Positions 4,428-55,021 of a DNA stretch of 64,000 bases are shown piece by piece. Source of the stretch: Geitlerinema sp. PCC 7407. Lineage in GTDB: Bacteria; Cyanobacteriota; Cyanobacteriia; PCC-7407. The position numbers and the translations under genes are program-made. How positions within the stretch are numbered: position 1 is the first letter of the stretch; each line of letters starts with the position of its first letter. The DNA lies in contig NC_019703.1 of NCBI RefSeq assembly GCF_000317045.1, positions 2,096,501 to 2,160,500 of the forward strand, read 5' to 3'. The notes under the pieces were generated by a model that saw nothing but the letters and a program-made list of their open reading frames with translations, did no database searches and was not told where the DNA came from.

Positions 4428-4624
4428 AGATAGGAGGAAAACAATGAAAATTTCAAAAAATAGCCCAAAATGGCCGAAAAATTCTTCTTAAGCAGAGTGC
4501 ACTCCCCCTCAAGGTACACGCTGCGATCGCCGGATCTTTTCCCTCCACACATTCCTTTAAGGAGGCAAGTAAGGGCGCGAGGACGCGGGCTCTCTCTTTG
4601 TCATAAAGGCAGAGAGAGAGGCAA

Positions 4625-9628: not shown

Positions 9629-9985
9629 CGTCAACACTCCTGATTGAAACTATCCAAGATGCCTATCTAGTTCCGCTGCTCAACGTAACCAGAGACTACG
9701 AAAATTCGATCGCAAAGAATTTTCAGAGGCAACCTATCTGATTGAAACATTCAGATGAATTCTAATTTCGTATGCCTTGGAAAAAATCTACTGATTGCTC
9801 AAGCGATCGCCTGGGCCGGACAAAACTTGACCTAGCTATAGAGCCTTGTACACTGTTCAATCATCCCTAAAAAAATCCCTCTTTCATTGTTTGTCCGAGC
9901 TTGATCAGAAAAACAATAAAAGAGGGAAAATCGTAATTTAAATGAAAAAGAATCTGGCGAGATTCTTATCTCTGCGCTCTACTCC
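9629..9985. other. intergenic region, TPR-CHAT 5' end to PEP-CTERM gene
   Basis: This 357-base stretch holds the presumed promoter of the TPR-CHAT gene and, at its other end, the strong terminator of the PEP-CTERM gene. I see no additional gene in it. Confidence 0.6.
9868..9930 (-). terminator. rho-independent terminator of the PEP-CTERM gene
   Basis: A 17-base stem (9876-9892 against 9911-9927, one mismatch) closes an 18-base loop. Read on the minus strand it is followed by a run of seven T residues, as expected for termination of the gene ending at 9986. Confidence 0.75.
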
Positions 9986-11295: not shown

Positions 11296-12687
11296 ATGAC
11301 AGAACTCACCCCAAACCCTAGTTACAGTTTGTCGATTCGCGTGCAATTGCCCAACCGTGCCGGAATGCTGGCGAGTGTGATGACAGCTATTGGCGAGGCT
11401 CGGGGCAATCTGGACCAAGTTGAACTGCTTGAGCGAACGCGCCATGTATCTATCCGAGATATTTCTGTGGACGCTGCGAGTGTTGAGCACGCCGAGCAGA
11501 TTGTGGCGGCGGTCAAGGGAGTGCCAGACATTAAAGTGCTGAGCGTGTCTGACCGGACGTTTAGCTTGCACCGGGGGGGCAAGATTGCGATTCAAAGTAA
11601 ACTATCGCTCCATCGTCAGTCAGATTTGGCGATGGCCTACACGCCGGGGGTGGGCCGTATTTGTACGGCGATCGCAGAGGACCCAGAACAGGTCTATCGC
11701 TTGACAGTCAAGCAAAATATGGTTGCGATTGTCACGGATGGCAGCGCAGTGCTAGGACTTGGCAATCTAGGGCCAGAGGCTGCTCTCCCGGTGATGGAGG
11801 GCAAAGCGATGCTGTTCAAGGAATTTGGGGGAGTCGATGCCTTTCCCGTTTGCTTGGCTACGCAAGACACAGATGAGATCGTTGAGACTGTCAAGCGTAT
11901 CGCGCCTGTGTTTGGGGGAGTAAACCTAGAAGACATTGCGGCCCCACGTTGTTTTGAGATTGAGGCTCGACTGCGCCAGGAGCTCAACATCCCTGTCTTT
12001 CACGATGATCAGCACGGGACGGCGATTGTTTCCCTAGCGGCACTCATGAATGCCTTGAAACTAGTTGATAAGTCCCTGACTGAAGTACGCATTGTCATCA
12101 ATGGTGCTGGAGCAGCAGGGGTAGCGATCGCGCGTCTCCTTCGCAAAGCTGGTGCCCAGACCATCTGGATCTGCGACTCCAAGGGAATCCTGTCTCACAG
12201 CCGATCAGACCTCACAGAGCAAAAGCGTGAGTTTGCCGTCGAAGCTCAAGGCGGTTTGGCCGATGCAATGAAAGGCGCAGATGTTTTCTTGGGGGTGAGC
12301 GTTCCAGGTGTGGTGACGCCAGAAATGGTGCGCTCGATGGCTAGAGATCCGATTGTGTTTGCGATGGCTAACCCAATCCCTGAGATCCAGCCTGAGCTGA
12401 TTGCCAATGAAGTTGCGGTTATGGCGACAGGCCGCAGCGACTATCCCAATCAAATCAACAATGTGCTGGCTTTCCCAGGAATTTTCCGAGGAGCGCTAGA
12501 CTGCTATGCCACGGAAATGACAACCAACATGTACCTGGAGGCAGCGTCGGCGATCGCTTCATTGGTCAAGCCTTCTGACTTAGACCGCGAGCATATTATT
12601 CCTTCAGTCTTTGATGAGCGCGTGGCAACCGCAGTGGCAGCGGCTGTCCAGCACGCTGCTCGCCAAGACGGAGTAGCTCGTCGCTAG
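11296..12687 (+). CDS. NAD(P)-dependent malic enzyme with N-terminal ACT domain
   Basis: Malic enzyme oxidatively decarboxylates malate to pyruvate and CO2. The 463-residue protein begins with an ACT ligand-binding domain (about residues 8-85, LPNRAGMLASVMTAIG), a common amino-acid-sensing module. The catalytic part follows: AYTPGVGRIC, GNLGPEAALPVMEGK, NLEDIAAPRCFEIE, the metal-binding FHDDQHGTA, and a Rossmann nucleotide site (INGAGAAGVAIARLL). The ACT fusion suggests allosteric control by a small metabolite. It stands alone, with a hairpin after its end at 12755-12797. Confidence 0.9.
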   Translation: MTELTPNPSYSLSIRVQLPNRAGMLASVMTAIGEARGNLDQVELLERTRHVSIRDISVDAASVEHAEQIVAAVKGVPDIKVLSVSDRTFSLHRGGKIAIQSKLSLHRQSDLAMAYTPGVGRICTAIAEDPEQVYRLTVKQNMVAIVTDGSAVLGLGNLGPEAALPVMEGKAMLFKEFGGVDAFPVCLATQDTDEIVETVKRIAPVFGGVNLEDIAAPRCFEIEARLRQELNIPVFHDDQHGTAIVSLAALMNALKLVDKSLTEVRIVINGAGAAGVAIARLLRKAGAQTIWICDSKGILSHSRSDLTEQKREFAVEAQGGLADAMKGADVFLGVSVPGVVTPEMVRSMARDPIVFAMANPIPEIQPELIANEVAVMATGRSDYPNQINNVLAFPGIFRGALDCYATEMTTNMYLEAASAIASLVKPSDLDREHIIPSVFDERVATAVAAAVQHAARQDGVARR

Positions 12688-12754
12688 GGTCGGTTATCCG
12701 TCCTTGCAGCTTTGCGACCAACTCGAATGCTGTGAGCTACACTCGACTTAGATG

Positions 12755-12797
12755 CTTACCTAAGGGCAGCGCTGCTTATGCTGTTGCCCTTAGTAAG
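12755..12797. other. hairpin between malic enzyme and 2TM gene
   Basis: The segment 12755-12768 pairs with 12785-12797, with one bulged base. There is no T-run after it, so it may be an attenuator or weak terminator rather than a classical rho-independent one. Confidence 0.45.
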
Positions 12798-12829
12798 ATT
12801 CTGACTCAAGTCTTGGGAGCTGCTGTCCT

Positions 12830-13315
12830 GTGCTACACGATACCTACCGTCAGGAAGATCTTCAAGCAATTCTACAGATTGCGATCACTCGTCAGGCGAT
12901 GAGTGGAGAGTTTACGCGTTCTCAGCTTCAAGAAATTGCCGAAGACTTGGGTATCTCATCAGAGATTTTATATCAAGCAGAGCGAGAGTGGCTTGCTGAG
13001 CAACAGCTGCTTTCAGAACGAGGGATGTTCAAAACCTATCAGAAGAGGCGATCGCGTCAGAAATTATTCAAATTTTTAATTGTGAATAGCTTTTTGATCC
13101 TACTGGACTGGGCGACCGGTGGGGGCCTAAGTTGGTCATTGATTTTATTGTTGCTGTGGGGAGCGGGCCTAACTTTAAATATCTGGCGTGCTTCCCAAGA
13201 TGAGGGAGAAGAATTTGAGCGCTCATTTCAAATTTGGCGACGAAAACGCCAGCTTCAACAATCCATGAACAGTTTGGTCGATCGTTTTTTTCGCCTAGCT
13301 CCTATTTCTAACTAA
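12830..13315 (+). CDS. 2TM-domain membrane protein, 161 aa
   Basis: A soluble N-terminal part (residues 1-75) contains a helical segment, FTRSQLQEIAEDLGIS, of a kind often seen in front of cyanobacterial 2TM domains. Two hydrophobic helices follow (about 82-96 and 100-118), then a basic, coiled tail ending in FFRLAPISN. It resembles the 2TM-domain family, of unknown function. The start is a GTG at 12830. The 207-residue gene at 33560 has a similar N-terminal segment. Confidence 0.62.
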   Translation: MLHDTYRQEDLQAILQIAITRQAMSGEFTRSQLQEIAEDLGISSEILYQAEREWLAEQQLLSERGMFKTYQKRRSRQKLFKFLIVNSFLILLDWATGGGLSWSLILLLLWGAGLTLNIWRASQDEGEEFERSFQIWRRKRQLQQSMNSLVDRFFRLAPISN

Positions 13316-13368: not shown

Positions 13369-13665
13369 GTGAGCATATTGAAGAAGCGAAGCATAATCAT
13401 TTGCCAATATCGTTCTTGCGAACGGAACGGAGCCAATAAAATATTAGAAGCCTTTAATGCAGTAGACTTACCAAACGTAACAGTTGAAGGGAGTGACTGC
13501 ATGGGGCAATGTAGTGCGGGCCCGAACGTTCGAGTGGTGCCGGATCGAGTATGGTATTGTCGCGTAACAATCGACGACGTTAGTCGAATTATCGAGGAGC
13601 ATCTTAAATCTGACAATCCGATTAAGGATTTAATGCATCCTCGCTTTCATGGATTTGTGGATTGA
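13369..13665 (+). CDS. thioredoxin-like [2Fe-2S] ferredoxin, 98 aa
   Basis: This small iron-sulfur protein has the thioredoxin-like ferredoxin pattern: C12 and C17 (CQYRSC), then C44 and C48 (DCMGQC). These four cysteines would bind one [2Fe-2S] cluster for electron transfer; the partner is unknown. The start is a GTG at 13369. The codons from about residue 81 onward, from base 13611, lie inside the left arm of the giant palindrome, so the last 18 codons are duplicated in inverted orientation at 19715-19769. The gene itself looks intact. Confidence 0.82.
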   Translation: MSILKKRSIIICQYRSCERNGANKILEAFNAVDLPNVTVEGSDCMGQCSAGPNVRVVPDRVWYCRVTIDDVSRIIEEHLKSDNPIKDLMHPRFHGFVD

Positions 13666-13752
13666 GTGTTTAAGTGTTTGCGATCGAGTTGAGTTGTGGC
13701 TAGGGATGGGTTTTTATCGCATCCACTCTATCTCATCCCATCGCTCAATATC

Positions 13753-16383
13753 TCATCTTATTAATTCATTCAGTTCAATAATTTCTGCAATTTTTTCCAA
13801 ATTAGGATGTCTGCGATTATGCCTCGAGCCAATTTCATGTTGTTCGTGGTGTTTTTCTAGCTCCGTTTTCAGCTCATCAAAGACAGCAGCAACGTGTTTT
13901 TGATTAGCGCTCAACCCATGAGTTCTCAGGAGAGTTTGAACAACAGGGAAAGAGATATACCACTTATCATTGAAAGCCCGCCCCTCTTGGCTGTTAAGAG
14001 AAATAAGAGCCTGGACTGCCCGTCGAATATGATGTAGAGCCTCCTTTTCTGGGATGCGTTTCTTTGGGGACTTTGGCGAATCAGAAACATCCACCGAAGA
14101 TCGAGTTAAAGCAGGAGCGATCGCAGACTCAACCGGCCGCATCATCCGGTCGTCAACCGCTTGCTCTTGCTCCAGCTCTTGCTCTTGTCCTTGCTCCAGT
14201 TCTTGCTCTTTTTCATCCTGAAACGCATCCGTAAGCGATTCCGTTCCCAATAAGAGTTGTCTAAAAGCTTGAAGCTTCCTCCTTGCCTCATCGCACTCCT
14301 GCTTGAGCCGTTGGTTTTCAAGCCGTAGCGCCTCCCCTTGAGCAGAGACTTGTACCTGCCGTACCTGAGCGATCGCCTCATCTCGCTCCAGCTTCAGCGT
14401 TTCCACCAGTTGTTCCAGAGCTTCCATACGCTCTGTCAGCCAAGCGAGAGTTCGAGCCTGGTCCCTAATCGCAGCGATCGCCCCATCATCCGGGAGAAAC
14501 TGAGACGTAGTCCTCGTGACAGCGTAGGATTGCCCCTGAGCAAGCTGCTCTAGTATTTGTCCCAGAGCAGCCTCATAGCTCAGTCCCCCCGCTCCTCCAC
14601 GACCGCGGACCTGAATATTAAAAGAAGCTGCAACCGTTTTCAGAAGGTCAGGGTCAACAGAGAGCATCTTACGCCGATGTCGCACCTTAGGTTTAGCCTC
14701 CAAACGAGATGACATTTCTGTTGAAGATAGAGCATTAGCCCCTTCAGCCGCCGTAATTGGTTCATCCATCATCGTTGCTCCCTCTTCCGCCGCCGCTGCC
14801 TTCCGCCTCCTCAACACCTCCAGTACCTGGACATTGTGTTGTCCCAACTTGAGCCCTCGGCCATCCCTATCGGCCATAAAACCTGCCGTTCCACTTGCCT
14901 GGATCGCCCCCAGAAACGTCCCTTTCTCAACCTCAAGCGGACAGAACCAGTAAATAGCGATCGCCGAATACAACGCCCTCAAATCTGATACCGACTGCAG
15001 AAGCACCAAATCATCGAAAGTGCGCTCACACACCTTCCTAATCGCCGTACCCATCTCTTCTTCTGGCAGCGGCTCTAATTTCTGCCACCTCTGCCAAGCA
15101 GTGACCACCTGCCTAGCTCCCATGAGCGTTGGCACTTCCAGTCCATCAACCAGAATAGAGAACCCCGACTTCTCCTCCAACCGCTGCCCCATCAACGATT
15201 GAATCGTTCGGCCCGTCAGCAATATCAAACCCGTCACCGCCTCTGCCCACCCTTGAGCAAAGAGGAGTCGATCACCCGCACGGTAAATTAGAGCATTAAC
15301 AGTTTCTAGCTTCAATGATTTGCTGGACACCGCCGCGCCATGGTCGTTCTGATTGGTTGCTTTTTCTGGTTGAAACACCTCTAACACCTCCACCCCTGGC
15401 AAACCCAACTTTACTCCTGACTCTCCAGCAACCCGATCTCGAATAAGATAATCATCATAGTTTTGTCGAGCTGAATAGTTTGGAATTTTCTGCCCATTAG
15501 TAGTCAATTTGAAATGCCCTTGGATTTCCGCCTTAAATCGATGATCGGGCACCCAATCAGGCTTGTAATAGTACGTAGCAATTTCCGCATACACCGCTCG
15601 AAACAAATGGGTATAGAGTCGTTTACCATCGTCTGTTTCCGCCTTCCGCCCTGGCACCAAATCAGCGAAGTGCTGACGACAAGCATGAGGCACCCCAGAG
15701 TATCGGGCATTAATGCGACGTTTGAGATGACTTTCTGGCAGATTAAGTGCCCTCAGATCTCTAATATTCCAAACCTCTTGCAGATGAGTGATAGCCTCCA
15801 GCACTCGATGAGCGGGAGCCAGTGTAGGAATTTCAAATTCAATTTCTATCTCGTCGCGGCGTTTGACTGCCGTGCAAAACAACAGACTGTAAGCAGTTTT
15901 TGATTTGAACTTAGAAATAAGAATTTCACTAATACGGCGACCGACCAATACTGCTAGCCCGGCCGCTACCTCGTTAGGTTTCTCACTACCTAGCAGCGCG
16001 ATCGCCTTTTCTACTAATTCATTGGCTTGTTGAATAGAAAATAAATTATTGGCACGAGTATTGAGACGATTTGCCTGTTCATTATTTAACTGAGTGTAAA
16101 CATCAGAAGGCAGCAGGATAAACGGAATAACTGGATGATTTGGGGTAAAAACTCTAAGAGCATTAGCGACATCGGTGCGCCGATTTTTCTGTTGCTCTGG
16201 CGTAGTAAGCTTTTTTTCTTCAAACAAGAGGTCAATTTGGTTTGCCCAGTTGGAAGCAGTTTCTTGCCATTCTGGAGATTCTGTAGTTAAGCTCCACACC
16301 TGAGGTAGTAAGTTTGTTAATGCTTGCTCAAGCCAGCATGTTTTTGCTTGGGCCGCTGCTTGACGGATAAGAAATGTATTCAT
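13753..16383 (-). CDS. telomere resolvase (protelomerase), left copy, 876 aa
   Basis: This protein resembles protelomerases such as TelN, TelK and TelA, tyrosine-recombinase relatives that cut a replicated telomere junction and seal each half into a hairpin. Catalytic-domain landmarks: GLAVLVGRRISEIL (R149), TAVKRRDE (K174), FEIPTLAPAHRVLEAI, FRAVYAEIA (R262), EIQGH (H290) and NYDDYLI (Y309, candidate nucleophile). Residues about 360-530 repeat the same fold in decayed form. A coiled coil (about 640-740) and a basic C-terminal domain (about 775-876) follow. At 876 residues it is longer than TelA (about 440) or TelN (about 630). It is transcribed away from the palindrome centre, starting 307 bases from it. 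Several HIP1 octamers inside it suggest long residence in cyanobacterial DNA. Confidence 0.85.
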   Translation of the reverse strand: MNTFLIRQAAAQAKTCWLEQALTNLLPQVWSLTTESPEWQETASNWANQIDLLFEEKKLTTPEQQKNRRTDVANALRVFTPNHPVIPFILLPSDVYTQLNNEQANRLNTRANNLFSIQQANELVEKAIALLGSEKPNEVAAGLAVLVGRRISEILISKFKSKTAYSLLFCTAVKRRDEIEIEFEIPTLAPAHRVLEAITHLQEVWNIRDLRALNLPESHLKRRINARYSGVPHACRQHFADLVPGRKAETDDGKRLYTHLFRAVYAEIATYYYKPDWVPDHRFKAEIQGHFKLTTNGQKIPNYSARQNYDDYLIRDRVAGESGVKLGLPGVEVLEVFQPEKATNQNDHGAAVSSKSLKLETVNALIYRAGDRLLFAQGWAEAVTGLILLTGRTIQSLMGQRLEEKSGFSILVDGLEVPTLMGARQVVTAWQRWQKLEPLPEEEMGTAIRKVCERTFDDLVLLQSVSDLRALYSAIAIYWFCPLEVEKGTFLGAIQASGTAGFMADRDGRGLKLGQHNVQVLEVLRRRKAAAAEEGATMMDEPITAAEGANALSSTEMSSRLEAKPKVRHRRKMLSVDPDLLKTVAASFNIQVRGRGGAGGLSYEAALGQILEQLAQGQSYAVTRTTSQFLPDDGAIAAIRDQARTLAWLTERMEALEQLVETLKLERDEAIAQVRQVQVSAQGEALRLENQRLKQECDEARRKLQAFRQLLLGTESLTDAFQDEKEQELEQGQEQELEQEQAVDDRMMRPVESAIAPALTRSSVDVSDSPKSPKKRIPEKEALHHIRRAVQALISLNSQEGRAFNDKWYISFPVVQTLLRTHGLSANQKHVAAVFDELKTELEKHHEQHEIGSRHNRRHPNLEKIAEIIELNELIR

Positions 16384-16419
16384 AGAAAAAATAAACCTAT
16401 TTCTATAAAAAATATCGAT

Positions 16420-16442
16420 ATGAAATAAATTTCTTATTTCAT
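16420..16442 (-). promoter_or_regulatory. dyad in left resolvase leader
   Basis: This is the mirror image of the dyad at 16938-16960: two 9-base half sites (ATGAAATAA) separated by five bases, ending 37 bases upstream of the left resolvase start. A 10-base palindrome, ATATCGATAT, sits beside it. It could be an operator for autoregulation or an accessory resolvase site. Confidence 0.4.
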
Positions 16443-16937
16443 CTTCCTGATTTGTAAGCGATTACATAGATACGGTTTTATCTCTGACTTCATCTGAAGG
16501 AATTCACTCTTATTGTAGTTCTTTGCTCTAGTCTATTATATGTTGCTGCAAGTAAATACTACTGCTATAGTCCTTTCCAGGACGGCTTAAATAACTTATT
16601 TAATATTGATGTAAAATAAGTATAAAACTAGATCAATAAAATATTGAGATTTTTATTAATTGAGTTCTTTTTCTAATAAGTTTATTATCAGATAATAAAC
16701 TTATTAGAAAAAGAACTCAATTAATAAAAATCTCAATATTTTATTGATCTAGTTTTATACTTATTTTACATCAATATTAAATAAGTTATTTAAGCCGTCC
16801 TGGAAAGGACTATAGCAGTAGTATTTACTTGCAGCAACATATAATAGACTAGAGCAAAGAACTACAATAAGAGTGAATTCCTTCAGATGAAGTCAGAGAT
16901 AAAACCGTATCTATGTAATCGCTTACAAATCAGGAAG

Positions 16938-16960
16938 ATGAAATAAGAAATTTATTTCAT
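16938..16960 (+). promoter_or_regulatory. dyad in right resolvase leader
   Basis: ATGAAATAA and its complement TTATTTCAT are separated by GAAAT, ending 36 bases before the ATG. The palindrome ATATCGATAT (16959-16968) overlaps its right end. This could be an operator or a resolvase contact site. It is mirrored at 16420-16442. Confidence 0.4.
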
Positions 16961-16996
16961 ATCGATATTTTTTATAGAAATAGGTTTATTTTTTCT

Positions 16997-19627
16997 ATGA
17001 ATACATTTCTTATCCGTCAAGCAGCGGCCCAAGCAAAAACATGCTGGCTTGAGCAAGCATTAACAAACTTACTACCTCAGGTGTGGAGCTTAACTACAGA
17101 ATCTCCAGAATGGCAAGAAACTGCTTCCAACTGGGCAAACCAAATTGACCTCTTGTTTGAAGAAAAAAAGCTTACTACGCCAGAGCAACAGAAAAATCGG
17201 CGCACCGATGTCGCTAATGCTCTTAGAGTTTTTACCCCAAATCATCCAGTTATTCCGTTTATCCTGCTGCCTTCTGATGTTTACACTCAGTTAAATAATG
17301 AACAGGCAAATCGTCTCAATACTCGTGCCAATAATTTATTTTCTATTCAACAAGCCAATGAATTAGTAGAAAAGGCGATCGCGCTGCTAGGTAGTGAGAA
17401 ACCTAACGAGGTAGCGGCCGGGCTAGCAGTATTGGTCGGTCGCCGTATTAGTGAAATTCTTATTTCTAAGTTCAAATCAAAAACTGCTTACAGTCTGTTG
17501 TTTTGCACGGCAGTCAAACGCCGCGACGAGATAGAAATTGAATTTGAAATTCCTACACTGGCTCCCGCTCATCGAGTGCTGGAGGCTATCACTCATCTGC
17601 AAGAGGTTTGGAATATTAGAGATCTGAGGGCACTTAATCTGCCAGAAAGTCATCTCAAACGTCGCATTAATGCCCGATACTCTGGGGTGCCTCATGCTTG
17701 TCGTCAGCACTTCGCTGATTTGGTGCCAGGGCGGAAGGCGGAAACAGACGATGGTAAACGACTCTATACCCATTTGTTTCGAGCGGTGTATGCGGAAATT
17801 GCTACGTACTATTACAAGCCTGATTGGGTGCCCGATCATCGATTTAAGGCGGAAATCCAAGGGCATTTCAAATTGACTACTAATGGGCAGAAAATTCCAA
17901 ACTATTCAGCTCGACAAAACTATGATGATTATCTTATTCGAGATCGGGTTGCTGGAGAGTCAGGAGTAAAGTTGGGTTTGCCAGGGGTGGAGGTGTTAGA
18001 GGTGTTTCAACCAGAAAAAGCAACCAATCAGAACGACCATGGCGCGGCGGTGTCCAGCAAATCATTGAAGCTAGAAACTGTTAATGCTCTAATTTACCGT
18101 GCGGGTGATCGACTCCTCTTTGCTCAAGGGTGGGCAGAGGCGGTGACGGGTTTGATATTGCTGACGGGCCGAACGATTCAATCGTTGATGGGGCAGCGGT
18201 TGGAGGAGAAGTCGGGGTTCTCTATTCTGGTTGATGGACTGGAAGTGCCAACGCTCATGGGAGCTAGGCAGGTGGTCACTGCTTGGCAGAGGTGGCAGAA
18301 ATTAGAGCCGCTGCCAGAAGAAGAGATGGGTACGGCGATTAGGAAGGTGTGTGAGCGCACTTTCGATGATTTGGTGCTTCTGCAGTCGGTATCAGATTTG
18401 AGGGCGTTGTATTCGGCGATCGCTATTTACTGGTTCTGTCCGCTTGAGGTTGAGAAAGGGACGTTTCTGGGGGCGATCCAGGCAAGTGGAACGGCAGGTT
18501 TTATGGCCGATAGGGATGGCCGAGGGCTCAAGTTGGGACAACACAATGTCCAGGTACTGGAGGTGTTGAGGAGGCGGAAGGCAGCGGCGGCGGAAGAGGG
18601 AGCAACGATGATGGATGAACCAATTACGGCGGCTGAAGGGGCTAATGCTCTATCTTCAACAGAAATGTCATCTCGTTTGGAGGCTAAACCTAAGGTGCGA
18701 CATCGGCGTAAGATGCTCTCTGTTGACCCTGACCTTCTGAAAACGGTTGCAGCTTCTTTTAATATTCAGGTCCGCGGTCGTGGAGGAGCGGGGGGACTGA
18801 GCTATGAGGCTGCTCTGGGACAAATACTAGAGCAGCTTGCTCAGGGGCAATCCTACGCTGTCACGAGGACTACGTCTCAGTTTCTCCCGGATGATGGGGC
18901 GATCGCTGCGATTAGGGACCAGGCTCGAACTCTCGCTTGGCTGACAGAGCGTATGGAAGCTCTGGAACAACTGGTGGAAACGCTGAAGCTGGAGCGAGAT
19001 GAGGCGATCGCTCAGGTACGGCAGGTACAAGTCTCTGCTCAAGGGGAGGCGCTACGGCTTGAAAACCAACGGCTCAAGCAGGAGTGCGATGAGGCAAGGA
19101 GGAAGCTTCAAGCTTTTAGACAACTCTTATTGGGAACGGAATCGCTTACGGATGCGTTTCAGGATGAAAAAGAGCAAGAACTGGAGCAAGGACAAGAGCA
19201 AGAGCTGGAGCAAGAGCAAGCGGTTGACGACCGGATGATGCGGCCGGTTGAGTCTGCGATCGCTCCTGCTTTAACTCGATCTTCGGTGGATGTTTCTGAT
19301 TCGCCAAAGTCCCCAAAGAAACGCATCCCAGAAAAGGAGGCTCTACATCATATTCGACGGGCAGTCCAGGCTCTTATTTCTCTTAACAGCCAAGAGGGGC
19401 GGGCTTTCAATGATAAGTGGTATATCTCTTTCCCTGTTGTTCAAACTCTCCTGAGAACTCATGGGTTGAGCGCTAATCAAAAACACGTTGCTGCTGTCTT
19501 TGATGAGCTGAAAACGGAGCTAGAAAAACACCACGAACAACATGAAATTGGCTCGAGGCATAATCGCAGACATCCTAATTTGGAAAAAATTGCAGAAATT
19601 ATTGAACTGAATGAATTAATAAGATGA
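16997..19627 (+). CDS. telomere resolvase (protelomerase), right copy, 876 aa
   Basis: It is identical in sequence to the left copy: catalytic R149, K174, R262, H290 and Y309 in the first domain. In the second domain (about 360-530), R392 and R469 remain, but the lysine hairpin is deleted, the His position reads S497, and no tyrosine follows. Shared flanking motifs (VKLGLPGVEVLEV at 324-336, LKLGQHNVQVLEV at 511-523) show that the second domain is a tandem duplicate. The start at 16997 has only a weak AGG 12 bases upstream. Two identical, divergent copies suggest one gene per telomere. An ordinary integrase is less likely because the Arg-Lys-Arg-His-Tyr spacing and the YAEIA helix follow protelomerases. 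Confidence 0.85.
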   Translation: MNTFLIRQAAAQAKTCWLEQALTNLLPQVWSLTTESPEWQETASNWANQIDLLFEEKKLTTPEQQKNRRTDVANALRVFTPNHPVIPFILLPSDVYTQLNNEQANRLNTRANNLFSIQQANELVEKAIALLGSEKPNEVAAGLAVLVGRRISEILISKFKSKTAYSLLFCTAVKRRDEIEIEFEIPTLAPAHRVLEAITHLQEVWNIRDLRALNLPESHLKRRINARYSGVPHACRQHFADLVPGRKAETDDGKRLYTHLFRAVYAEIATYYYKPDWVPDHRFKAEIQGHFKLTTNGQKIPNYSARQNYDDYLIRDRVAGESGVKLGLPGVEVLEVFQPEKATNQNDHGAAVSSKSLKLETVNALIYRAGDRLLFAQGWAEAVTGLILLTGRTIQSLMGQRLEEKSGFSILVDGLEVPTLMGARQVVTAWQRWQKLEPLPEEEMGTAIRKVCERTFDDLVLLQSVSDLRALYSAIAIYWFCPLEVEKGTFLGAIQASGTAGFMADRDGRGLKLGQHNVQVLEVLRRRKAAAAEEGATMMDEPITAAEGANALSSTEMSSRLEAKPKVRHRRKMLSVDPDLLKTVAASFNIQVRGRGGAGGLSYEAALGQILEQLAQGQSYAVTRTTSQFLPDDGAIAAIRDQARTLAWLTERMEALEQLVETLKLERDEAIAQVRQVQVSAQGEALRLENQRLKQECDEARRKLQAFRQLLLGTESLTDAFQDEKEQELEQGQEQELEQEQAVDDRMMRPVESAIAPALTRSSVDVSDSPKSPKKRIPEKEALHHIRRAVQALISLNSQEGRAFNDKWYISFPVVQTLLRTHGLSANQKHVAAVFDELKTELEKHHEQHEIGSRHNRRHPNLEKIAEIIELNELIR

Positions 19628-19714
19628 GATATTGAGCGATGGGATGAGATAGAGTGGATGCGATAAAAACCCATCCCTAGCCACAACTCAACTCGATCGC
19701 AAACACTTAAACAC

Positions 19715-19769
19715 TCAATCCACAAATCCATGAAAGCGAGGATGCATTAAATCCTTAATCGGATTGTCA
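19715..19769 (-). pseudogene. 3' stub of the [2Fe-2S] ferredoxin gene
   Basis: This is an inverted copy of the last 18 codons of the ferredoxin gene at 13369-13665, carried along in the right palindrome arm. It has no start, no cysteines and cannot be functional. It marks how far the inverted copying ran past the resolvase gene. Confidence 0.85.
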
Positions 19770-19863: not shown

Positions 19864-21606
19864 CTATAAGACCTCTTCAGACGGGGGAAGATCAGCCTCT
19901 GGAAGCGCTGGCTCGGGAAATGCCTCGACAGGAGCCGGCTCAGGTTCTTCTGGTATTGCCTCGGGTTCTGGTAGAGGCTCAGGAATCGGTTCGGGTTCGG
20001 GCATAGGTTCAGGAATGGGTTCAGGAATGGGTTCAGGAATGGGTTCAGGAATGGGTTCGGGGAGTAGTGGTTCTGACTCAGGTACTGGTTCGACCTCTGG
20101 AAGCGGTTCGGGTTGCGGCTCAGGTTGTGGAATCGGCTCTGGTTCGCTGGGCTCTGAGGTAGGTATCGGTTCCTCAATTGCGGGGGTCGGCGTGGTTTCT
20201 GGGGTCGGCGTGGCTGACGGTGTTTCTGGCGCAGGTGCATCATTGCTGGGCGGTGCAACTGGCTCGGGAGCTGGGTCAGTTGCGGTTTCTGCGGGCTCTG
20301 GGGGCGCAGACTCGGCAGTGGTCGGAGTTGGGATCTCGACAGAACGGCGCTCACCGCGCTCCCGGGCGGCGCGGTTGCGTTCAGAGCCCTCGATGTTGAG
20401 GTCGTACTCGATGGGGACACTGGCTCCACCTTCGACAGGTTGAAAGCGCGATCGCTGGGCTGCTTCGATGGCGGCGCGATCGATAGCAGCATTGCCGCTG
20501 GAGCGGGTCAGGACAACGCTGCGAACGCTTCCATCCGCGTTGATCTCGACGTTGACGAGAGGCTGACCTTCGATGCCTGCTTCGACAGCGCTTTCGGGGT
20601 ACTCTGGCTCGACACAGTCTTCACAAGCGACGGTCCGCGAACCGCCCCCGCGAGTTTCTTGGCCAGCACCAGAGCTGGGGCGATCGCCAGTGCCATTGCC
20701 CGAACTAGTGTTTGTGTTGCCGGGGCGAGTGCCGGAACCTGCAGCGGTCACTGTGCCGGAACCTCCGGGAGCGTCGCCTTGGCCATTCCCACTTTCGGAG
20801 CGGCTGGCATTCGCAGCAGTGCTTGAACCTTGAGCAGTGGCACTTTGAGCAGCGGGTCCAGGACGAGCGGCGCTGGTCTCGCGATCGCGCAATCCCCGCA
20901 AGAACGACCGCAGGCGATCGCGCTGGGAAGGGTCAGGCGCTGTCGCTGCAACCCGAGGCTCTTCAGGCGCTTCTGGTTGAGACTCTGCGGGCGCTGCGGG
21001 CGTTTTGGGGGCTTCGGGCTCTGGCTTGGGAGGCTCTGTGACCTCGGATGCCGCTTGAGTTTCAGCTGCTGCCTCGGGCTCTTCGAGCGGCGTTTCTTCA
21101 GCGATTTCTTCGACGGGTTCTGGCTCGGGGGCTGCCGGTTCAGCTACATCCTCCGGCACAGGAGGCTCAGGGAGGGCTTCAGCAACCTCTGGCTCCTCAG
21201 GGAGGGGGGCAGCTTCGGGCTCCGAAGCTGGGGCAGCAGGCTCTGAAGTCGCCACGGGCACAATGTCGGCGGCGGGAGCAGCGTCAAGGGCGACAGCACT
21301 AGCGTCTGAGGCTGGGGCTGCGTCTAGGCTAGGAACTTCAGGGTCGAAAGTCTCGCTGCCCAGTTCGGCAGGCTCAAGGGGTTCCTCTGGGGGAGGCTCG
21401 GGGAGCACAGGCTCAGTGGGTTCCGCCACGATGATCTCCAGAGGCGTGATCTCGGCGGTGACGGGTCGCTGCCAGATCCCCAGATAGCTGAGAGCAAATG
21501 CGACCAAGTGGACCCCCACAGAGCCCAGAAGTCCCCAAAGTATTACCTTTCGCAGAGCGGCTTGCTCTCGATCGTGCTGCTGTGCGCAAACCTCTGAAAG
21601 ACTCAT
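19864..21606 (-). CDS. tonB: TonB-family energy transducer with internal C-terminal-type domain and Pro/Glu tail
   Basis: TonB couples the proton motive force, via ExbB-ExbD, to outer-membrane transporters. The 580-residue protein has one membrane anchor (about 20-42) and a long Pro/Glu/Ala-rich periplasmic spacer (50-220). A Gly/Ser/Asn-rich stretch (255-325) and a TonB domain (about 327-405: [19 protein letters not shown], then [16 protein letters not shown]) follow. Unusually, another 175 residues of Pro/Glu-rich sequence follow the TonB domain, including PEPI tandem units near 516-534. It diverges from the exbB operon, and a Fur-like box lies 49-63 bases upstream of its start. Confidence 0.86.
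20005..20060. repeat. 12-bp tandem repeats within tonB
   Basis: About four near-perfect 12-base units (AGGAATGGGTTC) encode the EPIP/EPMP repeats in the TonB C-terminal tail. This is coding low-complexity sequence, prone to length change by slippage. Confidence 0.8.
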
Positions 21607-21654
21607 AGCCCCTGCCTACTTCCCAAATGCTGCTTAAACGCTATTCATCATAGT

Positions 21655-21669
21655 TGACAATTGCTCTCA
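21655..21669 (-). promoter_or_regulatory. Fur-like box upstream of tonB
   Basis: Read on the minus strand this is TGAGAGCAATTGTCA, matching 12 of 14 defined positions of the TGATAATNATTATCA Fur pattern. It lies 49-63 bases upstream of the tonB start and differs by one base from the box at 21897-21911. Confidence 0.6.
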
Positions 21670-21896
21670 TTCAGTCAAGAGCTATCAAGAACTATTCTCA
21701 GGCGAATTGGCAAAATTAAGCGGCCAGGTAGTATAGGTCAGTCAGGGGCGATCGCCCCAAAACATTCATCCAATCAGGATTCTCTTCAGAAAGTTTTGCT
21801 TCGCCCCTGACTCTAGTCCCAGATCTGGCTGTCGTTTATCAAGATAGATTCTCAAGAAAAGCTTGACTTTGAAGACGAGATCGGGCTCAATCGTTT

Positions 21897-21911
21897 TGAG
21901 AGTAATTGTCA
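21897..21911 (+). promoter_or_regulatory. Fur-like box upstream of exbB
   Basis: TGAGAGTAATTGTCA matches 12 of 14 defined positions of the Fur pattern and is nearly identical to the tonB box. It lies about 105 bases upstream of the exbB start, so iron repression of both divergent units is likely. Confidence 0.6.
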
Positions 21912-22015
21912 TTTGTTTTTGGTTATTTGTGCTTGGGGCTGAGAGGCTGGCGACTACAGAGACAGCCAGACAGAACAGCGGTCCTGAGCTGCCCGTTTAG
22001 CGTGAGTTGTAGATC

Positions 22016-22666
22016 ATGGGAAGTATTTTTGCGGCAGGCGGCATCGTCATGTGGCCGCTGCTAGCGTTTTCGATTGTGGCGATCGCCCTGATTGGGGAGC
22101 GCCTGTTTTTTTGGTTTCGCCTAAACCAGCGTCAACGCCCTTTCATGCGGGAGATCCTGCGGATCTATCGCCAGAGCCCGACGGATGTGTTTCCCCGGCT
22201 GCGCCAAAATGTCCATTTGCCGATCGCCCGCATTTTCCTGGAAGCTCTGGAAATCGACGGCGCGAGCCCGAAGCAGTTTCACCTCGCGCTGATGAGCGCG
22301 ATACAGGCAGAATTACCCCATCTCAAGCGCTTTAGCACGGTTTTTGCGACGATTATCAGCACCTCGCCCCTGCTGGGTCTGCTCGGCACCGTCTTGGGCC
22401 TGATTACGTCCTTTGACGCGCTCCGGCTCGGCGACGTAGGCACCAACTCCTCGATGGTCACCGGGGGCATCAGCGAAGCCCTGGTATCGACGGCGGCGGG
22501 GCTGGTGGTGGCGATCTTCACGCTGATGTTTGCCAACCTGTTTCGCGGTCTGTATCGACGTCAGGTGTCGCTGATCCAGGAGTACGGCGGTCAGCTGGAG
22601 ATTCTCTATGAGTCTCACTATGAGCGGCTGCAACAGGGCAAGGAGGCTAGCTATGTATCTCCCTGA
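22016..22666 (+). CDS. exbB: ExbB, MotA/TolQ/ExbB proton channel protein
   Basis: ExbB forms the proton-conducting inner-membrane channel that powers TonB. The 216-residue protein shows a first membrane helix (about 10-28), a cytoplasmic loop, and the conserved pair of C-terminal helices. These carry TSPLLGLLGTVLGLI and the glycine- and threonine-rich ISEALVSTAAGLVVAI. It starts a tightly packed operon: exbD overlaps its end by 14 bases. A Fur-like box lies upstream. Confidence 0.93.
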   Translation: MGSIFAAGGIVMWPLLAFSIVAIALIGERLFFWFRLNQRQRPFMREILRIYRQSPTDVFPRLRQNVHLPIARIFLEALEIDGASPKQFHLALMSAIQAELPHLKRFSTVFATIISTSPLLGLLGTVLGLITSFDALRLGDVGTNSSMVTGGISEALVSTAAGLVVAIFTLMFANLFRGLYRRQVSLIQEYGGQLEILYESHYERLQQGKEASYVSP

Positions 22667-23072
22667 AGAACCAGAAGAGGAGTTTGAACTCAATATCGTG
22701 CCGATGATCGATGTCATCTTCGCGATTTTGACCTTTTTCATCATTTCCAGCCTGTTTTTGACCCGCTCTGAGTCGCTGCCGGTGAATTTGCCCAAGGCGG
22801 CTACGGCCCAGATGCAGCAGCGCACCAAGATCACAGTGTCGGTGGATCCAGAGGGCCAAATCGCCCTGAACCGCCGCCCCACGTCCCTGGAGGCCCTCAA
22901 GGCCGATGTCCAGCAGGAGATGGCCAAGGTGCAAGAGTCGGTCATCGTGATCAGCGCCGATGAGGCGGTGAGCCATGGCCAGGTGATCGCGGTGATGGAT
23001 GAGCTGCGGACCATCGAGGGGGCGACTCTGGGCATTGCTACCAAGCCCCCAGCCCCCGACGAGCAGCGATGA
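22653..23072 (+). CDS. exbD: ExbD, biopolymer transport protein
   Basis: ExbD is the small partner of ExbB and supplies the proton-binding aspartate. The 139-residue protein has an N-terminal cytosolic end, one membrane helix with the conserved Asp (NIVPMIDVIFAILTFFII), and a periplasmic domain. The start at 22653 lies inside the exbB end, directly before MYLPEEPEEEFELN. Its stop overlaps the next ATG in the ATGA arrangement, a sign of translational coupling to the ABC permease. Confidence 0.93.
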   Translation: MYLPEEPEEEFELNIVPMIDVIFAILTFFIISSLFLTRSESLPVNLPKAATAQMQQRTKITVSVDPEGQIALNRRPTSLEALKADVQQEMAKVQESVIVISADEAVSHGQVIAVMDELRTIEGATLGIATKPPAPDEQR

Positions 23073-24070
23073 ATCGCACTGGACTCTTGGGCTCTGCCCG
23101 GCGTCTGTGGCTGGGGCTGCCGGTAGGGGCTGCGCTGCTGGGCGTGTGCTTTTGGCTCAGCGTGACTCTGGGGTCGGCGGACGTCCCGCTGGAGACGGTG
23201 TGGCGATCGCTGGTGGCCTTTGATGGATCGACGGAGCATCTGATCATCCGGACGGTCCGCCTGCCGCGATCGCTGCTGGCGATCGCGGTGGGGTCGGCCC
23301 TAGCGGTGGCGGGTGCCCTAACCCAGGGGCTGACCCGCAATCCCCTGGCGGCCCCCGACTTGCTGGGGGTAGAGGTGGGAGCGGCCCTGGCCATGGTGCT
23401 GGCGCTCTACGGCGGCGGCACCCGCTCGGTGGGCTTTGCGCTGGCGGGGGCGGCGATCGCGGCGGCGGCGGTGTACTGGCTCGGCTCCCTGGGCCGCAGC
23501 GGCCTGACCCCCATGAAGCTGATTATTGCCGGGGCGGCGCTGTCGTACCTGCTGGGGTCGCTGACGACGGGGGTGCTGCTGGTGAGTCAGCAGACCCTCG
23601 ATGAAATTCGCTTTTGGCTGGCGGGGTCGCTGGCGGGGGCGGATCTGGCGGCCCTAAAGCTGGTGCTGCCCTACTGGGGGGTGGGAGTGCTGTTGGCGCT
23701 TCTGTTGGGGCGATCGCTCACCCTGCTAGCCCTGGGCGAAGACGTCGCCCAAGGCTTAGGCCTGCCCACTGCCTGGATCAAAGCCGGAGCCGCCCTGGCG
23801 GTGGTGCTGCTGGCCGGTAGCGCTGTGGCGGTGGCCGGTCCGATCGCCTTTGTGGGCCTGGTGGTGCCCCACGGGGTGCGCTTTTGGGTGGGGGTCGACT
23901 ACCGCTGGATTGTGCCCTACACCCTTTTGGCGGGCGGGATTTTGCTGCTGGTGGCCGACATTGCGGCCCGTTTGCTTTTGCAGCCCCAGGAGCTGCCCGT
24001 CGGCATCATGACCGCCCTAGTGGGCGCGCCTTGCTTTCTCTACCTTGCTCGATCCCACGTAAAACGATGA
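23069..24070 (+). CDS. FecCD-family iron-siderophore ABC permease (first)
   Basis: This 333-residue permease has about nine to ten membrane helices and the BtuC/FecCD signatures [39 protein letters not shown] and GPIAFVGLVVPHGVR. With the second permease it would form the membrane channel for a ferric siderophore or related chelate. It overlaps both neighbours by ATGA junctions. No substrate-binding protein gene lies nearby. Confidence 0.92.
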   Translation: MNRTGLLGSARRLWLGLPVGAALLGVCFWLSVTLGSADVPLETVWRSLVAFDGSTEHLIIRTVRLPRSLLAIAVGSALAVAGALTQGLTRNPLAAPDLLGVEVGAALAMVLALYGGGTRSVGFALAGAAIAAAAVYWLGSLGRSGLTPMKLIIAGAALSYLLGSLTTGVLLVSQQTLDEIRFWLAGSLAGADLAALKLVLPYWGVGVLLALLLGRSLTLLALGEDVAQGLGLPTAWIKAGAALAVVLLAGSAVAVAGPIAFVGLVVPHGVRFWVGVDYRWIVPYTLLAGGILLLVADIAARLLLQPQELPVGIMTALVGAPCFLYLARSHVKR

Positions 24071-25119
24071 CGTTGACCAAACCTTGGCTCTCGGTTCGGC
24101 TTCGGCCCTTGGGGGTGTCGTTTCGGGTCAGTCGCCCGACGCCCTGGGTGTTGGGAGGCTTGGGCCTGCTTTTGGTTTTCCTGGTGGGCCTCCACGTCAG
24201 TCAGGGCGAGTACCCGATTCCCCTGGGGGCGGTGCTGGCAACGCTGCTGGGCCTGCCCGCCGCCGACCCCAATCACGCCTTTGTGGTCCTGGATTTGCGG
24301 CTGCCGCGGGCGCTGGTGGCGGCCCTGGTGGGAATGGGGCTGGCGATCGCCGGCACGATTATTCAGGGGCTGACCCGCAACCCCCTGGCCGCCCCCGAAA
24401 TTATTGGCATTAATGCTGGGGCGGGGTTGGGGGCGCTGCTGCTCCTGGTGCTGTTTCCCTCGATGTCTCTGGTGGGCTTGCCCATGGCGGCCTTTGGCGG
24501 GGGTCTGGCGGCAGCGATCGCCATCTACGCCCTGGCCTGGAATCGCGGCAGTTCGCCCCTGCGCCTGATCCTGATGGGGATTGGCCTGACGGCCCTCCTG
24601 GGCGCCCTGACCAATGTCCTGGTGACCTTCGGCGAAATCAACGTAGTGGGGCAGGCCCTGGTGTGGCTGACGGGCAGCGTCTACGGCCGGAGCTGGCAGC
24701 ACGTGGGGCCGCTGGTGCCCTGGCTCTTGGGGGCAGGAGCGATGGCGCTGCTGCTGGCCCGCGACCTGAACACGCTGCATCTGGGGGACGAGGTGGCCCA
24801 GAGTTTGGGCATTGCGGTGGAGCGGCAGCGATCGCTGCTGTTGCTGTGCGCCGTGGCCCTGGCGGGAGCGAGCGTGGCGATCGCCGGGAATGTCAGCTTC
24901 GTTGGGCTGATGGCGCCTCACCTGAGCCGCCAGCTGGTCGGCCCCTCCCACGAAGGGCTATTGCCGACGGCGGCGCTGGTGGGGGGCTGCATGGTGACGC
25001 TGGCGGATCTCCTGGGCCGGCTGGTCTTTGCGCCTCTGGAGCTGCCCTGCGGCGTAGTGACTGCCGTGGTGGGCGCGCCTTACTTTCTCTATCTGCTCTA
25101 TCGCAATCGCAACGCATAA
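24067..25119 (+). CDS. FecCD-family iron-siderophore ABC permease (second)
   Basis: The 350-residue second half of the permease pair repeats the family signatures: [37 protein letters not shown] and [15 protein letters not shown]. The ATG at 24067 overlaps the previous stop; the frame is open further upstream, but that part overlaps the first permease. The N-terminal cytoplasmic extension of about 30 residues is rich in Arg and Pro. Confidence 0.92.
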
Positions 25120-25127
25120 CCCCTCCC

Positions 25128-25982
25128 ATGTTTGACTCTGATGCTCCTTCAGCTTTGGCAGCTCACCAGCTCACCCTGGCCTACGACGGCGCGGTGATCG
25201 TGCGGGGGCTGGACCTGACGATTCCGCGTCAGCAGATCACCACCCTGGTCGGCCCCAACGGCTGCGGCAAGTCAACCCTGCTGCGCGGGCTCGCCCGCCT
25301 GCTGCGGCCCCAGGCAGGCGCGGTGTACCTGGAGGGACGGGCGATCGCCCAGCTACCGGCCAAAGCTCTGGCCAAACGGCTGGGCATCCTGCCCCAGAGC
25401 CCGGCGGCCCCCGAAGGTCTGACGGTGCGAGAGCTGGTGGCCCAGGGCCGCTATCCCCACCAAGGCTGGCTCCAGCAGTGGTCCGCCGAGGATGAGCAAA
25501 AAGTCGAAGCGGCGATCACCACCACCCACCTCCAGGACTTCGCCAACCGCCCCCTCGACACCCTCTCCGGCGGCCAGCGCCAGCGCGCCTGGATCGCCAT
25601 GGCCCTGGCTCAGGACACCGAAATTTTGCTGCTGGACGAGCCCACCACCTACCTGGATCTAGCCCACCAGATCGAAGTCCTCGATCTGCTCTACGACCTC
25701 AACTACCAGGCCCAGCGCACCATTGTGATGGTGTTGCACGACCTCAACTTGGCCGGTCGCTACAGCCACCACCTGGTGGCCCTCCGCCAAGGAGCCGTGA
25801 TCGCCCAGGGGACGCCTGGGGAAGTCATCACTGAGGCCGTGATCAAAGCGGTCTTCGATCTTGACAGTCGCGTGATCCGAGACCCCCTGACCAGCACGCC
25901 TCTGTGCGTGCCGATCAGCCGAACCATTGTTGCTTCTCAATCCACTTCAACGAAGACAATACTGAGAGCCGATAAAACTTAA
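25128..25982 (+). CDS. iron-siderophore ABC transporter ATPase
   Basis: This is the 284-residue ATPase of the transporter. It shows Walker [10 protein letters not shown] (about 42-50), signature LSGGQRQR, Walker B ILLLDEPT and the switch histidine in VLHDLNLA, in the usual order for the FepC/FecE group. It begins eight bases after the second permease stop. The last 25 residues, rich in Ser and Thr, are a short extra tail. It is the last gene of the exbB operon. Confidence 0.93.
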
Positions 25983-26568: not shown

Positions 26569-28188
26569 ATGGCGGATTCAATTTGGGCATCTCAAGCAGG
26601 TCTGAGGCTGGTAGATCAGGCCAGACGCCTAAGACAGTGGAATAAAACTGCGGGAATTTGGTGCGATCGCGCTTTGACTTCTCGCGCAACCCTCAACCGA
26701 TTTTGGGCTTGTCGGCCGATCCGGCGAGAAACCTTCATTGCGATTTGTCAGGCAGTCGAGGTGAACTGGCAAATGGTGGCGGATCCGCAGGCGATCGCTC
26801 CCTTGTCCATCGCGGACGCCGTCAGCATCACAGACTTGCCGCTCCAAGAAGGATCCTGGCAAAGCTGGGGCGACGCCCCAGACACCGGCGTTTTCTATGG
26901 TCGGGCCGAGGAGCTGGCTCGCCTGGAGTCATGGATCGTCAAGGAGCGGTGCCGCCTGGTGGCGCTCCTGGACATGGGCGGCATCGGCAAGACGGCCCTG
27001 GCGGCGAAACTGGGACGCCGTATGGGCGGAGACTTCGAGCGGGTGATGTGGCGCAGCCTGCGCAACGCGCCGATGCTGGAGGAGATGCTGGCAGATTTTG
27101 GGCAGTTCTTTGGCTATGGGGCAGAGGGCGATCTGCCGAACCACCTCGACGGCAAGATCCTGGCGCTGATGGAGCATTTGCAAAACCGCCGCTGCCTGAT
27201 CGTGCTGGACAATCTGGAGTCGATCTTGCAGGAGGGCGATCGCACGGGGCGCTACCGACCGGGCTATGAGGGCTACGGCCAGCTTTTGCGCTACGTGGCA
27301 GACACCGCCCACCAGAGCTGCGTGCTGTTTACGTCGCGGGAGCGGCCCAAGGGCTTGGCCACCTTCGAGGGGCACACGCTGCCGGTGCGCTGTTTTTTGC
27401 TGTCGGGGCTGCTGGAGGCAGAGGGACGGGAGATTTTTCGCACGAAAGGGACCTTTTCGGCAACCAATGAGGATTGGAGCCTGCTGATTCGGCGCTACGG
27501 CGGCAATCCCCTGGCCCTCAAGATCGTGGCTTCGGCAGTGCGAGATTTCTTTGGCAGCGATATTGCGCAGTTTTTGGAGTTTTTGCGCCAGGGGCCGTTT
27601 ATTTTCGACGATATTCGCGAGCTGCTAGAGCGTCAGTTTGGGCGCCTGACGCCCCTCGAGCAGGAAATCATGTACTGGCTAGCCCTCAACGGGGAGTCGG
27701 TTTCTTTCCAGACGCTCCAGGCCAATCTGGCGATGCCGCTGCCACCCCTGGAGGCGCTGGAGTCCCTGGCTTCGCTCCAGCGGCGATCGCTGATCGAAAA
27801 AAGCGGCGATCGCTTTACCCAGCAGCCGGTGGTCATGGAGTACGTCCTGCATCGCTTCATTGAGCGCGTGACCGAAGAGATCACCCGCCGCGATCTGCAA
27901 CTGTTTTGTCAGCATGCGCTAATCAAGGCCCAGGCCCAAGAGGCCCTGCGGGAAACCCAAAGAATTCACATCGTGCAGCCGCTGCTGTACTACTTGCTGG
28001 CTCGCCTGGGACCACCGGAGCGCCTCCGGCTCACCCTGGAGGCGCTACTGGCGGATCTGCAGGGAAAGTCCGCTCCAGAAATTGGCTATGCGGCTGACAA
28101 TCTCCTGCATCTGCTGGGGGCGCTCGCAGGCGATCGCCAAAGCTACGGTGCCTCGAGCCTGATCAGCCGCCAAAGCGACTCGACCTAG
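26569..28188 (+). CDS. NB-ARC (STAND) ATPase, 539 aa, without sensor repeats
   Basis: NB-ARC proteins are signal-transducing ATPases that switch by nucleotide-driven oligomerisation. The N-terminal 90 residues look like a small helical DNA- or protein-binding domain (TSRATLNRFWACRPIRRETF). Walker A is MGGIGKT (136-142), Walker B CLIVLDNLE (near 210), then LFTSRERPKGL and a GNPLALKIV motif, followed by a winged-helix region. Many cyanobacterial relatives continue into WD40 or TPR sensors; this one stops about 150 residues after the winged helix. An AAGGTGG precedes the ATG. It is convergent with the kaiC-like gene across a HIP1-containing palindrome at 28188-28201. Confidence 0.85.
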   Translation: MADSIWASQAGLRLVDQARRLRQWNKTAGIWCDRALTSRATLNRFWACRPIRRETFIAICQAVEVNWQMVADPQAIAPLSIADAVSITDLPLQEGSWQSWGDAPDTGVFYGRAEELARLESWIVKERCRLVALLDMGGIGKTALAAKLGRRMGGDFERVMWRSLRNAPMLEEMLADFGQFFGYGAEGDLPNHLDGKILALMEHLQNRRCLIVLDNLESILQEGDRTGRYRPGYEGYGQLLRYVADTAHQSCVLFTSRERPKGLATFEGHTLPVRCFLLSGLLEAEGREIFRTKGTFSATNEDWSLLIRRYGGNPLALKIVASAVRDFFGSDIAQFLEFLRQGPFIFDDIRELLERQFGRLTPLEQEIMYWLALNGESVSFQTLQANLAMPLPPLEALESLASLQRRSLIEKSGDRFTQQPVVMEYVLHRFIERVTEEITRRDLQLFCQHALIKAQAQEALRETQRIHIVQPLLYYLLARLGPPERLRLTLEALLADLQGKSAPEIGYAADNLLHLLGALAGDRQSYGASSLISRQSDST

Positions 28189-42490: not shown

Positions 42491-42502
42491 AAGAAGATGT
42501 CT

Positions 42503-42563
42503 GAGAAGTCCAAGAATTGCCCTCATCCCCCAACCCCTTCTCCCAAAATTGGGGGAAGGGGAG
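42503..42563 (+). repeat. dispersed intergenic hairpin repeat, copy A
   Basis: This 61-base element closely matches 54905-54966 in inverted orientation. Shared features are GAATTGCCCTCATCCCCC and the hairpin CCCCTTCTCCCAA / TTGGGAGAAGGGG, mutated in this copy. It is a short non-coding repeat, probably a MITE-like element or a dispersed REP-type sequence. Confidence 0.7.
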
Positions 42564-54904: not shown

Positions 54905-54966
54905 CTCCCCTTCTCCCAACATTGGGAGAAGGGGTCGGGGGATGAGGGCAATTCTTTGACTTCTTA
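54905..54966 (-). repeat. dispersed intergenic hairpin repeat, copy B
   Basis: This is an inverted copy of 42503-42563. Its hairpin is perfect here: CCCCTTCTCCCAA (54907-54919) and TTGGGAGAAGGGG (54922-54934), separated by two bases. It is followed on the plus strand by the por terminator. Confidence 0.7.
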
Positions 54967-55021
54967 GCTAGAGCAGCCGAAGCCTCACACCAAATCAGAG
55001 TTATGGCGTGAGATGAAGGAG

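Follow-up and report, generated by a model that had tools for sequence, protein, structure and literature searches.

A telomere resolvase with a decayed second catalytic domain, encoded twice in a perfect palindrome at the replication terminus of Geitlerinema sp. PCC 7407, and a proposed linear chromosome

Why should a chromosome recorded as a closed circle carry a telomere resolvase gene twice, in a long palindrome opposite dnaA, and what could the second, decayed catalytic domain of this enzyme do? The stretch of DNA analysed here (64 kb, hereafter the window) corresponds to positions 2,096,501-2,160,500 of a single 4,681,111-bp contig. We propose a linear main chromosome that ends in 3.1-kb terminal inverted repeats with hairpin telomeres and was closed into a circle by the assembly; from the sequence, we would give this reading about three chances in four. 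The features of the locus are collected in Table 1.

Table 1. Features of the resolvase locus and its surroundings, in window coordinates
Feature	Position	Strand	Evidence
Left flank: genes for malic enzyme and a 2TM-domain protein; farther out, queA, caspase and CHAT-TPR genes	11296-13315	+	Pfam
Inverted repeat, left arm; interpreted as the terminal inverted repeat at one chromosome end	13611-16689	-	3079/3079 bases complementary to 16691-19769
Telomere resolvase gene, copy 1, identical to copy 2	13753-16383	-	ORF list, repeat alignment
Palindrome tip TATTATC-A-GATAATA; putative joined hairpin tip (centre of a replicated telomere)	16683-16697	.	unique in genome, folds, G024 end
Inverted repeat, right arm; read as the other chromosome end	16691-19769	+	arm complementarity
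Telomere resolvase (protelomerase) gene, copy 2, 876 aa, tandem catalytic domains	16997-19627	+	PF16684 4.5e-34; TelA fold match Z 18
Catalytic domain 1, residues 108-340, intact R150 K174 R262 H290 Y309	17318-18016	+	five residues invariant in the relatives covering them
Catalytic domain 2, decayed (residues 355-530); T393 at Arg I, S497 at His, R469 (Arg II) retained; Lys hairpin and Tyr segment deleted	18059-18586	+	Pfam, profile, model, alignment
Predicted coiled coil, residues 633-712	18893-19132	+	two long helices in model; 64% mean pairwise identity
Conserved C-terminal helical domain, residues 776-876	19322-19624	+	common to one-domain relatives and to proteins matched in the C-terminal part alone
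Right flank: TonB (-); ExbB, ExbD, two FecCD, ABC ATPase (+)	19864-25982	.	Pfam

The resolvase and its two catalytic domains

The 876-residue open reading frame of copy 2 was confirmed in the window. The whole protein matches the Pfam family PF16684 (ResT-TelK_cat) at E 4.5e-34 in two stretches, and its predicted N-terminal and first catalytic parts superpose on TelA (Z 17.5-18.1), TelK (Z 14.9) and the catalytic domain of ResT (Z 13.7); by sequence and predicted structure, it belongs to the hairpin telomere resolvases. A match to PF16684 alone is no proof of a linear replicon, since the control genome of Synechococcus elongatus also has one. The initial annotation had assigned R149, K174, R262, H290 and Y309 to the active site of the first domain. 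The last four stand, while the first arginine (Arg I) has to be moved to R150, the second Arg of a GRR motif, with which the catalytic R255 of TelA aligns (the R255A crystal chain reads TGRAPYEV). Mean pairwise identity in this domain is 0.80 over six long proteins, those with both domains. Elsewhere, proteins of four genomes (G038, G023, G026 and G002, loci L012, L017/L024, L023 and L025) match, in the present search, just the coil and the C-terminal part, about residues 563-871, and are possibly stand-alone telomere-related proteins. Promoter and terminator scans yielded no better than chance, and neither Rfam families nor tRNAs were found in the 64-kb window.

The second half had been proposed to repeat the catalytic domain, a proposition confirmed here. 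Taken alone (residues 351-545, 18047-18631), it matches PF16684 at E 1.7e-6 with 28.2 bits, the cut-off being 27, and the corresponding half of a Pantanalinema relative does so at E 4.1e-8. A profile built solely from the catalytic regions of 30 one-domain relatives matches all six long proteins in their second halves, with E-values of 1e-20 to 1e-25, and none of the 1,200 shuffles that served as control scored better than E 1.5; at the level of sequence, the recombinase similarity is far beyond chance. The full-length model was of low confidence in domain 2, because just two alignment rows covered it, and the domain was therefore modelled separately. This second model (mean pLDDT 86.8, pTM 0.83) superposes on TelA 211-414 with a Z of 16.9 and 2.4 A over 153 residues, although the input alignment of the model contained domain 1 rows and biases it towards that fold; against the ResT catalytic domain, the two halves score Z 13.7 and 14.0. 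The predicted fold is that of the TelA, ResT and TelK catalytic domains, not an unrelated one.

The catalytic residues of domain 2 have been lost in nearly every position. At Arg I the six long proteins read GRT or GRS, that is T or S (T393 here), and the segment GRTIQSLM, which had been taken to keep this arginine, has in fact lost it. The Lys has gone together with its hairpin and the Tyr segment is deleted, as the initial annotation had it for this protein and as holds for the aligned long proteins. The Ser noted at the His position is present here (S497) but not conserved, the six proteins having S, P, A or R. Arg II is the sole catalytic residue to survive, in five of the six proteins (R469 here), with Q in G182. 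The tandem layout is shared by the five relatives aligned, all of them without the catalytic Lys, His and Tyr in domain 2, and long-type matches occur in 7 of the 388 genomes of the class (in G340 as fragments). Judged by these residues, domain 2 cannot cut.

With the same predicted fold, its catalytic residues lost and signs of retention by selection, domain 2 has the attributes of a pseudoenzyme half of a tyrosine recombinase. It could instead be a decaying relic without function, every catalytic position but one being lost and even Arg II being Q in one relative. This is highly improbable, because a relic would have drifted like the linkers: mean pairwise identity over the six long proteins is 0.55 in domain 2 and 0.26-0.27 in the linkers, domain 2 has invariant core residues, and it is kept in six of six long proteins from several families. 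The tree unites the second halves in a single clade (100/99), apart from the first halves of the same proteins. The duplication that had been suggested is supported; by the tree it is old, not recent, and the origin and placement of the clade are unsure owing to its long branch. The second half is acidic in four of the six long proteins (pI 5.1-5.7), which disfavours plain DNA binding and would point to protein contacts or regulation. We consider domain 2 most likely to be a non-catalytic structural or regulatory half. No description of a two-domain resolvase was found in the open-access literature.

The palindrome and its place in the genome

The initial annotation had overlooked the identical second copy of the gene and the inverted repeat in whose arms both copies lie. 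The repeat is perfect, with 3,079 bp per arm, zero mismatches and a one-nucleotide centre at 16690, and spans about 6.2 kb in total. That these might be two independent gene copies was rejected, as the identity extends through non-coding sequence up to the centre. A genome-wide search tolerating up to one mismatch finds the tip here and nowhere else. As single-stranded DNA, the centre folds into a lone hairpin closed by a 3-nt loop (z -16.3); among the other palindromes in 1.74 Mb sampled from the genome, the longest has arms of 26 bp. The start codon of copy 2 faces the tip, 306 bp away, and the perfect palindrome is a candidate target of the resolvase. The window also holds an 81-nt direct repeat in four copies (63-85% identity) inside a coding region at 45625-46236, and a 63-nt inverted repeat, 90% complementary, at 42501-42563 and 54905-54967, 12.3 kb apart, perhaps a mobile element remnant.

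The centre of the palindrome lies at genome position 2,113,190 (2.113 of 4.681 Mb), opposite dnaA, which stands at contig position 382, the contig beginning just before it. Cumulative GC skew, computed from a sampled 1.7 Mb plus the window, climbs until about 2.06 Mb, is level as far as 2.16 Mb and declines thereafter; the palindrome centre is on this plateau, and local skew around it is uneven, a point against the linear reading. The skew thereby places the palindrome at the replication terminus, where forks end. Were a linear chromosome with its origin in the middle recorded as a circle, its ends would meet here, at the skew maximum.

The flanking genes indicate that the palindrome is surrounded by chromosome, not by a plasmid or prophage. 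Beyond the right flank of Table 1 follow NB-ARC, a KaiC-like gene, cydB, cydA and asparagine synthase. In G006, NB-ARC and cydBA adjoin the long-type gene, and in G039 NB-ARC is near it; the long-type resolvase is therefore a resident chromosomal gene. Caspase, CHAT-TPR and NB-ARC genes are found near both putative ends (window 2220-9637 and 26569-28188). The genome encodes SbcD, with a strong match at 4.29 Mb; a second, weak SbcD-like match is located at C1:2066314-2066589 (L218), about 47 kb from the palindrome.

A linear chromosome and the readings that compete with it

We propose that the window spans both ends of a linear main chromosome, joined at their tips. Each end would consist of a 3,079-bp terminal inverted repeat with the resolvase gene in it, sealed covalently by a hairpin at 16690. 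Forks from an origin near dnaA would reach and round both tips, giving a circular inverted dimer whose halves are connected through palindromic replicated telomeres. A resolvase dimer would bind there, each subunit cutting one strand with Y309 of domain 1, by analogy with TelA, ResT and TelN, and the cut ends would fold back and be resealed as hairpins, as these three enzymes do (PMC3558466, PMC12624138). The circular record would result from an assembly that passed from one repeat round the tip and into its counterpart. The most likely role of domain 2 would be in the cohesion or regulation of the complex, through subunit contacts, restraint of the enzyme or masking of the hairpin from SbcCD. 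Literature cited in PMC12624138 describes SbcCD as cutting hairpins and long palindromes, and TelN protects hairpins from it separately from cutting (PMC12624138). The combination of a resolvase gene with a tip-to-tip palindrome argues for hairpins over terminal-protein ends of the Streptomyces type.

The putative ends are symmetric, a palindromic tip being flanked by inverted arms, and the origin lies away from them, as would be expected of a hairpin-ended linear chromosome; both points find support in G024, a cyanobacterium of a different family. On its single contig of 5,458,034 bp, the long-type resolvase (60% identity) is found 8 kb short of the right end and dnaA at 2,633,868, or 48% of the length. 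The first 77 bases of this contig have an exact inverse copy 5.0 kb from the right end, so that both contig ends run into one and the same terminal stretch. This overlap is expected of 5-kb terminal inverted repeats, and an assembly graph in which two ends lead into one repeat is the published signature of linear replicons with such repeats (PMC9453081, PMC13293297). The last bases of the contig read ...TATTATC, and 12 of the 16 terminal bases equal the window tip in register. We regard these as independent signs of a linear chromosome; the GC skew of G024 is weak, a point against the linear reading, and is not usable on its own.

Further relatives offer partial parallels. The contig of G182 that bears a long-type gene starts in a 45-nt palindrome, and no terminal inverted repeat partners were found in its fragmented assembly. 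Contigs of G052 and G053 with one-domain resolvases end in the odd-centred palindromes GTTC-A-GAAC and GTTC-T-GAAC. Odd-length centres of the form TC-W-GA mark the putative telomere tips at the ends of L063 and L065 and at 16690 in the window. Counting against the linear reading, the long-type gene is away from the tip in G024 (8 kb from the contig end), in G182 (21 kb) and in G072 (at least 23 kb). Further in than the last 16 bases, the tips share no convincing box: for the pairs of this genome with G024 and with G182, about 5 of 200 shuffles are equally good. No binding motif is therefore claimed. A one-domain resolvase at G221:C1:9026-9994, 9 kb from the start of a 4.5-Mb cyanobacterial contig, may mark another chromosome end. 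A huge palindrome in G340 (L192) was discarded as merely a run of N, and an initial scan of genome contigs with the single protein as query gave no matches.

The proposed reading has to be weighed against others. The inverted repeat itself could be an assembly artefact, in which a single end has the resolvase and the sequence running round its hairpin was misjoined, within the mirrored part, to the other end, the chromosome then being linear but without 3.1-kb terminal repeats. The absence of any mismatch in 3,079 bp is what such a read-round would give, and in G024 the gene lies inward of the implied terminal repeat instead of within it. However, a misjoin that ends 142 bp past the stop codon at unrelated sequence would mean that the assembly lacks the real second tip, and linear replicons commonly have terminal inverted repeats of 1-5 kb (PMC13293297; G024), so that we hold this explanation to be unlikely. 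Less probable still is a true circle in which two resolvase genes lie in a perfect 6.2-kb palindrome, a pair of telomeres that fused or was left unresolved and persists because the enzyme is inactive or rarely active. The deposited record, a closed contig rotated to dnaA, does count against linearity, a single contig starting just before dnaA being what a finisher would deposit for a circle, and S. elongatus likewise has a PF16684 gene. Yet SbcD is present, and perfect palindromes of about 6 kb are unstable in bacteria with SbcCD; moreover, the active-site residues are all intact, the arms are undecayed and G024 bears its own signs of a linear chromosome. As for the resolvase having arrived with a linear plasmid or telomere prophage that integrated at the terminus, related one-domain resolvases do occur on cyanobacterial plasmids, several recorded as linear, but this is scarcely credible and already largely refuted by the flanks, given that none of the 20 flanking ORFs tested (queA, malic enzyme, TonB-ExbBD, cydAB and others) is a plasmid or phage gene, that no relative was found in 50,697 phage records or in a scan of viral contigs, and that NB-ARC and cydBA are linked to the gene in G006.

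Implications and comparison with known systems

If the linear reading is correct, a photosynthetic lineage would possess a linear main chromosome, linearity would have arisen in another phylum, and linear main chromosomes could hide among finished genomes recorded as circles; when and why bacteria become linear, and how hairpins escape SbcCD, would become testable. A resolvase with a dead second domain would, in addition, offer a natural separation of cutting from binding or protection, and cutting and protection have recently been told apart in TelN (PMC12624138). It can be hypothesised, at about even odds, that scattered cyanobacteria have a hairpin-ended linear main chromosome, some of them recorded as circles, with a chromosomal resolvase whose dead domain binds or caps the telomere and with an odd-length telomere centre.

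Telomere resolvases and hairpin telomeres are already known. To our knowledge, hairpin-ended main chromosomes occur in very few bacteria, namely Borrelia and, by report, a phytoplasma. ResT of Borrelia resembles the role proposed here in that it maintains the hairpin ends of a main chromosome, but in a different phylum; as far as we know, it has no second catalytic domain, and its gene does not lie in a long terminal repeat at both ends. TelA of Agrobacterium tumefaciens shares the catalytic fold and active-site set of domain 1 (Z 18) and serves a hairpin-ended linear replicon. It differs in having 442 residues and a single catalytic domain, in that its replicon is a secondary chromosome, and in the 6-base overlap TCATGA of its DNA, whereas the centre here is odd (TC-A-GA), which counts against the linear reading. 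The resolvases TelN and TelK of the telomere phages N15 and phiKO2 likewise act on a palindromic site; these replicons are phage-plasmids, whereas no phage genes surround the palindrome here.

Cyanobacteria have been mentioned in passing as carriers of hairpin-ended linear chromosomes (PMC3558466), and we found no description of a resolvase-capped linear cyanobacterial main chromosome in the open-access literature. The closest cyanobacterial counterparts are the resolvases of Leptolyngbya boryana pLBX and pLBY, Chondrocystis plasmid2 and Gloeocapsa pGLO7428.02, which belong to the same family and have the same N-terminal, catalytic and C-terminal parts. These four plasmids are recorded as linear, and their resolvases have one catalytic domain. 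The linear plasmids of Rhizobiaceae, with hairpin ends, a resolvase gene, terminal inverted repeats of 1.1-1.2 kb and the same assembly-graph signature, come near to the architecture proposed here, but they are 80-kb plasmids, not a main chromosome (PMC13293297).
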